Shown here piece after piece: positions 48,595 to 50,499 of a stretch of DNA of 64,000 bases. The DNA comes from Arthrobacter beigongshangensis. GTDB taxonomy: Bacteria; Bacillota; Bacilli; Bacillales_A; Planococcaceae. The DNA is taken from contig NZ_JADHDX010000002.1 of NCBI RefSeq assembly GCF_016820585.1, positions 62,001-126,000 on the forward strand, in the 5' to 3' direction. The position numbers were made by a program, and so were the translations under genes. The notes beneath the pieces were generated by a model that saw only the letters and a list, made by a program, of their open reading frames with translations, was not told the origin of the DNA and ran no database searches. Positions within the stretch are counted from its first letter, which is position 1. Each line of letters begins with the position of its first letter.

Positions 48595-48624
48595 AAAAAA
48601 AGCCGCATAATTGCGGCTTTTTTT
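48595..48624 (+). terminator. Terminator of the ferredoxin-NADP reductase gene
   Basis: AGCCGCA (48601-48607) pairs with TGCGGCT (48612-48618), with seven A before and T after. It could work both ways. Confidence 0.9.
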
Positions 48625-48780
48625 GTCTAGCTCCGGGCGCCAGATGCATTTCGTGATTGTTTTACCGCGTCTGTTGATTAACCAAAAAATAATTTAATCA
48701 AACACCTAGGTACTCTGTGTAATGTTTTCTTTTGTCTCGTTCTGGATTGAACGACTTCTATACAATAGCCGTGATATTTT

Positions 48781-48815
48781 ATGTGTAGGATGCGACGAAG
48801 TCGCATCCTACACAT
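48781..48815. repeat. Perfect 16-bp hairpin with GAA loop (element hairpin 1)
   Basis: ATGTGTAGGATGCGAC (48781-48796), GAA, then the exact complement (48800-48815). The apex is GAC-GAA-GTC. No U tract follows, so it is not a normal terminator. Confidence 0.9.
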
Positions 48816-48928
48816 TCTGTTCGGTAATCGTATGGTGGTCGTTCATCCGTCACTCTACAAAAACACAGATACACAAAGTGCTAATGCTTTTGAGGACGAG
48901 GGAATAGAGGGCTTCTTAACCTGAGAGG

Positions 48929-48954
48929 GCCGCCAAAGATACAATTTTGGCGGC
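48929..48954. repeat. 9-bp hairpin (element hairpin 2)
   Basis: GCCGCCAAA (48929-48937) pairs perfectly with TTTGGCGGC (48946-48954) around an 8-base loop. Confidence 0.85.
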
Positions 48955-49057
48955 TGAATCTTCTACTATGGTCTTTTCCACTGTTATTGTAGGTAGTGTC
49001 ACCTTCTTGATAAAACTTGCTAAAAGTACAGTGAGAATACCTTGTACAACGTGCAAG

Positions 49058-49085
49058 AGTGCCCGAAATTTCATCTTCGGGCACT
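49058..49085. repeat. 10-bp hairpin (element hairpin 3)
   Basis: AGTGCCCGAA (49058-49067) pairs perfectly with TTCGGGCACT (49076-49085) around an 8-base loop. Confidence 0.85.
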
Positions 49086-49168
49086 TACAGCCTTTATAGA
49101 AAGTCATCTATTCTTTTCTTCTCAAACCACTGCATTTTTCACTTAAACAGTGTAGGTACGCGACAGGC

Positions 49169-49292
49169 AACTATTCACAACAAAATGACCGAAAATAATG
49201 TATCTAGAAATGACGAAGTCATTTCTAGATACATTAACCTCCGCGGAGGAATGAACTGCAATTCCTCCTTGGTAATGATGTCGTGAATAGTT
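49169..49292. repeat. Outer 10-bp stem enclosing two hairpins
   Basis: AACTATTCAC (49169-49178) pairs with GTGAATAGTT (49283-49292). It encloses the 19-bp hairpin at 49196-49236 and the hairpin GGAGGAAT/ATTCCTCC at 49245-49268, forming a three-way-junction-like layout. Confidence 0.8.
49196..49236. repeat. Perfect 19-bp hairpin with GAA loop (element hairpin 4)
   Basis: TAATGTATCTAGAAATGAC, GAA, then the exact complement. It has the same GAC-GAA-GTC apex as hairpin 1 but a different stem sequence. Confidence 0.9.
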
Positions 49293-49395
49293 AGCTGAGA
49301 GCGAACCGGCAACGATTTAGTGAAAAAAGTGATTTTCAAGCCTTTATTCACCTACGATTTATGCAAGTAAATGGTTAATCAACAGACGTGTTATT

Positions 49396-50499
49396 TTACA
49401 ATAGAAAAGTAATAACCAAGATGAGCACTAACGGACCCAATAAGATGACATAGCCAAGAGGCTGCCCAAAGTTGACGGTCCAACCTACACCAAATCTTTT
49501 TTCAACAAAAATGGATGGATCGTTTTTATTGACGTAAATGACGCCAAACTTCCAATATTGGTCATCATCAACATCTGTGACTCCAGGTGTCGATTCATCT
49601 TCAAATGCAACATCTATGCGTGACCCACTTTGACCGACTTTGAAGGCATAGATGGCTGTACCGATGAGGATAAGTAATAGAAAACCGAGTGGCATAGCAA
49701 GCATAAGTGCAGTGTTGCCAATACCTTCATGAATCGTTGATAAGTGTAGAAAACTCATAAGAACTGTCGAGAGTACAGTTGTCATGAACAAAAACCAACT
49801 ACTATATTTTCTGAAGGATAACTGTTGTACTTGGGAACTTTTACTTTTAGCGGCATTCAATTTAATGCCTGACCGTTTTATTAACGCATTGAATCCAAGT
49901 AACATCCCTTGCATGATTAATTGAATAAGTAGAAGAGCAATAACAGAAAATGGTGTTTTAGGGCTGAAAGCATCAGGTTGCCCATTAGGTCCCCAGTGCG
50001 TCGGAATCATATCGGGCATATTGCCGTATTGCGTTGCGGTATAGGCAATCAGACCAATTGTAATTGCTAATGGTATGGCATAGATAGACGTTGGAAGCAT
50101 TTCATCTTTCGTACGGATGGCTAAGTCGACAATCCGTATTTGTTTCAAGTCTGCACCCCAGTTATTCATGCGTTTCAGCTGGGTTGTTTTCGCATGGAAA
50201 TATAAATACAGAGCCATGCTGAGAAAAAGGATACCAAATTGAATCGCTAAACCTATCAAGACAATTTGTTCTTCGGTAATGCTGCCGTTAGCCCAAATGG
50301 CAAAGCCAATGAGCGAAATGAGACCAATGCTACTGACGATTGCTGAGTACATTTTTCGATAGGATGCGATAATAGTATTATCCGTATGGCCTTCCGGAAT
50401 GGTCACTCCAAAAGCAATCGTCCGTCTTAGTAAAAATGGGATGGCAGACTGTATAACGACAATGAAGCCGAAAATAATTAGAAAAATGGTAGTCGTCAT
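49396..50499 (-). CDS. DUF1648/DUF5808 multispanning membrane protein
   Basis: The 367-residue protein has about eight membrane segments. It carries the DUF1648 signature (GNMPDMIPTHWGPNGQPD, near residue 160) and a C-terminal DUF5808-like stretch (YWKFGVIYVNKNDPSIFVEK). This architecture is common in Bacillales and usually stands beside a YtrA-type GntR regulator, as here. Function is unknown, though such pairs often respond to cell-envelope stress. The regulator ends 3 bases upstream, so they form one operon. Confidence 0.85.
   Translation of the reverse strand: MTTTIFLIIFGFIVVIQSAIPFLLRRTIAFGVTIPEGHTDNTIIASYRKMYSAIVSSIGLISLIGFAIWANGSITEEQIVLIGLAIQFGILFLSMALYLYFHAKTTQLKRMNNWGADLKQIRIVDLAIRTKDEMLPTSIYAIPLAITIGLIAYTATQYGNMPDMIPTHWGPNGQPDAFSPKTPFSVIALLLIQLIMQGMLLGFNALIKRSGIKLNAAKSKSSQVQQLSFRKYSSWFLFMTTVLSTVLMSFLHLSTIHEGIGNTALMLAMPLGFLLLILIGTAIYAFKVGQSGSRIDVAFEDESTPGVTDVDDDQYWKFGVIYVNKNDPSIFVEKRFGVGWTVNFGQPLGYVILLGPLVLILVITFLL

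Follow-up and report, generated by a model that had tools for sequence, protein, structure and literature searches.

The element and its insertion site

Between a terminator and the end of a convergent gene, the analysed window (the whole stretch of 64,000 nucleotides) contains a segment for which a preliminary description reported no convincing gene, inverted terminal repeats and dense hairpins. This raises the question of whether the segment is mobile and whether its folded interior has a role as RNA, as DNA or no role at all. The perfect 17-bp inverted ends are present at 48668–48684 and 49372–49388, and the position between the terminator (48595–48624) and the convergent gene (49396–50499, minus strand) is as described. 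The proposed 721-bp segment (48668–49388) is real, but its boundaries are too tight: comparison of 40 complete copies, drawn from the same genome and from other genomes, places the real ends 2 bp outside the perfect repeats. Together with the table of ends and target-site duplications and an empty site in the relative G014, this alignment delimits a complete non-autonomous element of 725 bp (48666–49390, plus strand).

The left terminal inverted repeat, CGCGTCTGTTGATTAACC (48666–48683, plus strand), has one mismatch to the family consensus CACGTCTGTTGATTAACC, reading CGCGTCTG at 48666 where the consensus reads CACGTCTG. The right repeat (49373–49390, minus strand), which ends in ...CAGACGTG at 49390, matches the consensus exactly, and the consensus element is bounded by CACGTCTGTTGATTAACC...GGTTAATCAACAGACGTG. 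The 9-bp target-site duplications are TTGTTTTAC on the left (48657–48665) and TTATTTTAC on the right (49391–49399), the latter including the stop codon of the convergent gene; their single difference is a later change. At the orthologous place the congener G014, in which the pre-insertion sequence is TTATTTTAC, has a single uninterrupted ATTATTTTACAATAG, representing an exact empty site, and in other relatives the alignment runs across the junction without an insert.

The left flank of the element (48625–48656) is a remnant of a second dispersed repeat, beginning GTCTAGCTCCGGGCGCCAGATGC. A version of about 115 bp lies at the same place in G014, and the genome under study holds at least nine matches to this repeat, mostly partial.

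Copies and distribution

At least 45 matches to the element were found in its own genome (G000), more than 10 of them complete or nearly complete, with identities of 69–94%, and the element is present in 13 of 68 congeneric genomes. Its length varies from about 640 to 780 bp among copies, and many copies are truncated. Perfect 9-bp duplications flank 18 of the 40 complete copies, while in 12 more the duplications match at 7–8 of 9 positions. Because many copies end at the same bases, 9-bp duplications are found at their ends and a relative keeps the empty site, the segment is a real mobile element and a member of a repeat family; the search for multiple copies and empty sites suggested in the preliminary description has therefore been answered positively.

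Some Sporosarcina and Psychrobacillus genomes carry dozens of copies. A scan of 84,980 species genomes for the exact motif of the central hairpin H3 (see below) gave 66 stretches, all of them from Sporosarcina (E16_8, BP05, psychrophila and JAI121) or Psychrobacillus. With a covariance model of the H3 domain, matches were obtained in 35 of 261 family genomes, distributed over 3 of 19 genera that include these two. The counts for the genus and for the family dispose of the idea that the segment is unique and unconserved in relatives. A 693-bp copy in another genus (L261, genus g28) is flanked by the perfect duplication TTAGCAAAT; it is about 69% identical to a Sporosarcina copy over a central stretch of 487 alignment columns, and both ends match too. 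The repeat of Sporosarcina and Psychrobacillus is previously undescribed: it has no match in Rfam, and no paper on it was found in the literature library searched.

All 28 copies examined for their context are intergenic. A preferred gene context was considered and rejected, as orientations are mixed and divergent sites are few among these copies. Carriage by phages or plasmids was rejected, given the absence of matches between the exact H3 motif and viral contigs and between the element and plasmids.

Probable helper insertion sequence

To find the source of the transposase, the family genomes were scanned with the 18-bp element end, which revealed full insertion sequences of 1,254–1,259 bp with ends CACGTCTGTTGATTAACY / CACRCGTGTTGATTAACC and 9-bp duplications (for example, ATATCTTCT and AAAATCGAA; copies L055, L056, L057 and L065). 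The element shares their 18-bp ends with 1–3 differences. The transposase frame of this “helper” has 389 codons in L055 and L057 and matches NCBIfam IS4_1 (E 8.2e-66) and Pfam DDE_Tnp_1 (E 2.9e-29), which identifies it as a DDE transposase of the IS4 family; the Y-(2)-R-(3)-E-(6)-K signature, compared by eye, is readable in YKERWAIESFFRWIK of L055. Subgroup IS4Sa is defined by CA------T ends, duplications of 8–10 bp and a size of 1150–1750 bp (PMC2266710); the helper begins with CACGTCTGT..., duplicates 9 bp and is 1,255 bp long, so that it fits this subgroup by its ends, size and duplication length. Within the genus, the end motif is matched by insertion sequences of the helper subfamily but not by other IS4-type elements.

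Since the same ends and 9-bp duplications occur in an IS4-family insertion sequence, the element is almost certainly mobilised in trans by an IS4Sa-like transposase. We consider it highly probable that the segment is a non-autonomous IS4-family transposon whose ends are IS4Sa-like and whose movement depends in trans on the transposase of the full-length insertion sequence, and this assessment concerns the transposon itself and not the role of its interior. The transposase of the insertion sequence with the common ends would act on the element by the usual cut-and-paste route of the IS4 family.

Intact or near-intact relatives of the helper are found in G002, G022 and G213. The only helper copy found in the genome under study is decayed and lies on contig C8 (L231, G000:C8:40476-41008); like L232 of G223, it is an IS4-family helper with matching ends and an internal deletion, common to both genomes. 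No intact helper of the subfamily was found in the copy-rich genomes G031, G009, G211, G223, G224 and G182, some of which are draft assemblies. Present-day activity in these genomes is therefore unproven: it may have ended, or the helper may be missing from the drafts.

Related ends were also met elsewhere. A genome of another genus (G192; L053, L054) has about 49 matches to the closely related ends CAGGTGTGTTGATTAACC, which surround a gene-free repeat of another sequence (CTGATTTCCGCTACGGGCTACTCG...); this is a further non-autonomous family, apparently with the same kind of ends. Short elements of 135–510 bp with the same end core occur in G093 (L051, L052 and L066; 58 end matches in the genome), with direct duplications at the ends of L051 and L066. 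G212 (L235, L242, L245, L247) holds an IS4-type insertion sequence of another kind in seven intact and nearly identical copies; its frame has 386 codons, and its ends do not match the element.

Absence of a gene

The preliminary description saw neither a convincing gene nor the coding remnants of a decayed insertion sequence, and both statements hold. The five small open reading frames of the element have no Pfam match, and across the 40 copies the longest stretches without a stop codon (63–112 codons) lie in different frames, so no frame is common to them. Likeness of the interior to the helper is limited to about 20–40 terminal bases. The suggestion that the element is a decayed insertion sequence or a prophage remnant is extremely improbable, although it would account for the insertion-sequence terminal repeats; it is refuted by the copy comparison, in which size and ends are uniform across many copies, no coding remnant is present and the interior is unrelated to the helper, and the H3 motif is without a match in viral contigs.

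Fold of the interior

The interior is occupied by two branched arms and two central hairpins. Arm A (48708–48878) is a branched long hairpin with outer stems 48748–48771/48822–48845 and others, tipped by hairpin H1 (48781–48815), which has a perfect 16-bp stem and a GAA/TTC loop. The central hairpins are H2 (48929–48954; GCCGCCAAA-gatacaat-TTTGGCGGC, perfect 9-bp stem) and its inverted counterpart H3 (49058–49085; AGTGCCCGAA-atttcatc-TTCGGGCACT, perfect 10-bp stem), which is the most conserved motif. Arm B (49135–49327), the inverted counterpart of arm A, is built of the stems 49135–49161/49301–49327 and 49164–49190/49271–49297 and tipped by hairpin H4 (49196–49236), with a perfect 19-bp stem and a GAA loop. 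The dense hairpins reported earlier were recovered at their places, with perfect stems of 19, 16, 10, 9 and 8 bp, as was the enclosing 10-bp stem, which lies inside the 27-nt inverted repeat 49164–49190/49271–49297 and encloses two hairpins. The fold is much more stable than chance would give: as RNA, the window copy reaches −282 kcal/mol (z = −23.5, 20 dinucleotide shuffles); the RNA of the other strand has z = −12.5 and the DNA fold has z = −11.9.

The 8-bp stem belongs to an optional small hairpin of 24 bp (GGAGGAATGAACTGCAATTCCTCC, with the stem GGAGGAAT...ATTCCTCC; 49245–49268, alignment columns 704–728 in A1), which is present only in some copies. L075 carries a similar small hairpin on the opposite side of H4 as well, which gives the impression that the hairpin itself comes and goes.

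In 39 of 42 elements the left half, once reverse-complemented, aligns to the right half with a score exceeding that of every shuffle, and in none does it do so in the direct orientation; the element is accordingly either a diverged inverted duplication or a single long quasi-palindrome kept by selection. Inverted similarity exceeds shuffles in 35 of 40 copies for H2 and H3 and in 22 of 40 for the two arms. We suppose that the interior is an old inverted duplication, each half of which would consist of one branched arm and one central hairpin. In 30 of 40 copies, 7–8 of the 8 positions of the H2 loop are complementary to the H3 loop (6 of 8 in the window copy); kissing of these loops was considered and rejected, since the inverted symmetry accounts for the match and no covariation is seen at the variable positions.

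Possible selection on the structure

Pair statistics were based on a strand-neutral consensus structure. Two-sided changes occur at 58 of 161 pairs compared to 33.6 in shuffles, and consensus partners pair in 90% of cells versus 33–40% for slid partners. A tree-aware null was obtained by re-placing substitutions at random on the tree in 200 simulations; arm A, arm B, H1, H2 and H4 have a surplus of compensatory pair types over it, the observed value being reached in 0–5 of the 200 simulations (12 types vs 6.1 expected for arm A and 15 vs 6.9 for arm B). No compensatory surplus over this null is seen in H3, in the terminal repeats or in the central long stem, and the last of these (helix 9) was dismissed as a candidate helix for lack of compensatory support. 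The behaviour of the terminal repeats is thus that of binding sites and not of a stem. The share of paired cells in the tree simulation is elevated in the terminal repeats as well, which makes it a weaker measure. The rate of change of paired columns is about half that of unpaired ones in arm A and in the middle; in arm B the difference is less clear. These data suggest that the arm folds are held by selection.

Under the per-pair tree-aware covariation test, 6 of 159 pairs are significant, one in H1 (columns 140–168) and five in H4. The covariance analysis recommended in the preliminary description thus speaks for the arms, H1, H2 and H4 as groups of pairs exceeding the tree-aware null, but at the level of individual pairs its support is confined to these six. 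Template switching is a credible alternative explanation for the covariation in H1 and H4, because their loops interchange between GAA and TTC among close copies.

Possible role of the interior

The balance of mismatches at helix pairs bears on the nature of the folded molecule. For the whole element, G-U and A-C mismatches number 206 and 240, compared to 69 and 11 (about 6:1) in RNase P of the same genus treated by the same procedure. In both arms the strand running from the centre to the end is favoured, with 125 G-U vs 62 A-C inferred events in all (2:1), a bias that is much weaker than that of RNase P and only suggestive because the split was noticed after the data had been seen; unpaired columns have no C>T strand bias and no mutation bias matching the arm wobble. 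Promoter-like and terminator-like signals in the element are at chance level, the only terminator-like match being H4 on the minus strand. A structural RNA spanning the whole plus strand, to which the strong fold of the window copy had pointed, was rejected: of 40 copies only 23 have the lower minimum free energy on this strand, and G-T mismatches are about as frequent as A-C.

Our preferred reading, which we hold tentatively, is that the interior acts on transcripts entering the element from either side. As the centre-to-end strand tolerates G-U over A-C in both halves, transcripts reading through from one side or the other would have their best fold in the last arm that they cross on the way out of the element. 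The element may then be a two-way structured 3' barrier or stabiliser, which would dampen transcription that crosses the element's own ends and enters its neighbours. A serious alternative is that the structure operates at the DNA level, with hairpins acting as cruciforms or folded single strands of DNA, for instance in replication-coupled transposition or end synapsis, and with no RNA function. The overall balance of G-T and A-C is as expected if both strands matter, the DNA fold is much more stable than in shuffles, and the hairpin tips have the C-GAA-G motif, which forms very stable DNA mini-hairpins; however, one strand is preferred within each arm with no corresponding bias at unpaired columns, and the terminal repeats lack compensatory pairing.

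We find it doubtful that the interior has no function and is passively carried, its hairpins staying perfect via template-switch repair of palindromes. Truncated copies are indeed common, GAA and TTC loops alternate between closely related copies, and the covariation surviving the per-pair test is found only in two perfect short-loop hairpins, but the long-range imperfect stems of both arms exceed expectation, paired sites evolve more slowly and the layout is kept in Psychrobacillus at about 70% identity. The preliminary description had raised a mobile structured RNA. Mobility and a conserved structure with compensatory changes agree with this suggestion, but RNA as the functional molecule is unsupported by the mismatch balance and the six significant pairs; since the latter are limited to two perfect hairpins and there is no overall wobble bias, a mobile structured RNA is possible but unproven. 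In its dedicated form, in which transcription outward from the centre would yield one or two functional RNAs that aid the spread of the element or act on the host, we regard it as quite unlikely: the conserved structure, the outward-strand wobble bias in both halves, the mutually complementary H2 and H3 loops of most copies and the tens of copies per genome, conserved across genera, point to it, but no promoter rises above chance, the overall wobble bias is not RNA-like, Rfam 15 yields no relative at or above the gathering score, and the loop complementarity follows from the inverted symmetry without covarying. Also unlikely, in our opinion, is that the structure is the only “cargo” of the transposon, two folded RNAs, quasi-palindromic and read divergently, that would be under selection for the persistence of the element by controlling read-through, its own ends or the expression of the helper transposase.

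Relation to known elements and significance

The element resembles IS4Sa insertion sequences in its CA------T ends and 9-bp duplications (8–10 bp in the subgroup), but has no transposase gene and an interior unrelated to the insertion sequence (PMC2266710). Mobile insertion cassettes (MICs) such as MIC231, with the IS231 ends of the IS4 family, are described in Bacillus cereus (PMC2266710, PMC6542083). Like the element, they place IS4-family ends around DNA without a transposase and are presumed to be mobilised in trans. MICs carry passenger genes and use IS231 ends, whereas the element is gene-free, with no family-matched open reading frame or conserved frame between its ends, which are IS4Sa-like and enclose a conserved structured inverted duplication. 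MITEs are similarly gene-free, with inverted ends, target duplications and many intergenic copies; the element is longer (about 640–780 bp), has a multi-domain fold conserved between genera and, at about 725 bp with only about 20–40 terminal bases alike, is not a short internal-deletion derivative of its helper. The bcr repeats (bcr1) are known in the Bacillus cereus group (PMC6542083). They are also mobile, gene-free and foldable repeats of Bacillales, but by description they are set apart from the element in length and ends. The bcr1 repeat is far shorter and is not known to have IS4-type ends.

The element represents a new family: large, without genes, in all likelihood IS4-mobilised, and with a folded interior that is conserved and quasi-palindromic. 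Gene-free transposons are usually viewed as short deletion leftovers, whereas the present element is long, has an interior unrelated to its helper, comes close to mirror symmetry, reaches tens of copies and is kept across genera with compensatory changes. It thereby opens to experiment the question of whether selection on a bacterial transposon can act through nucleic-acid structure alone.
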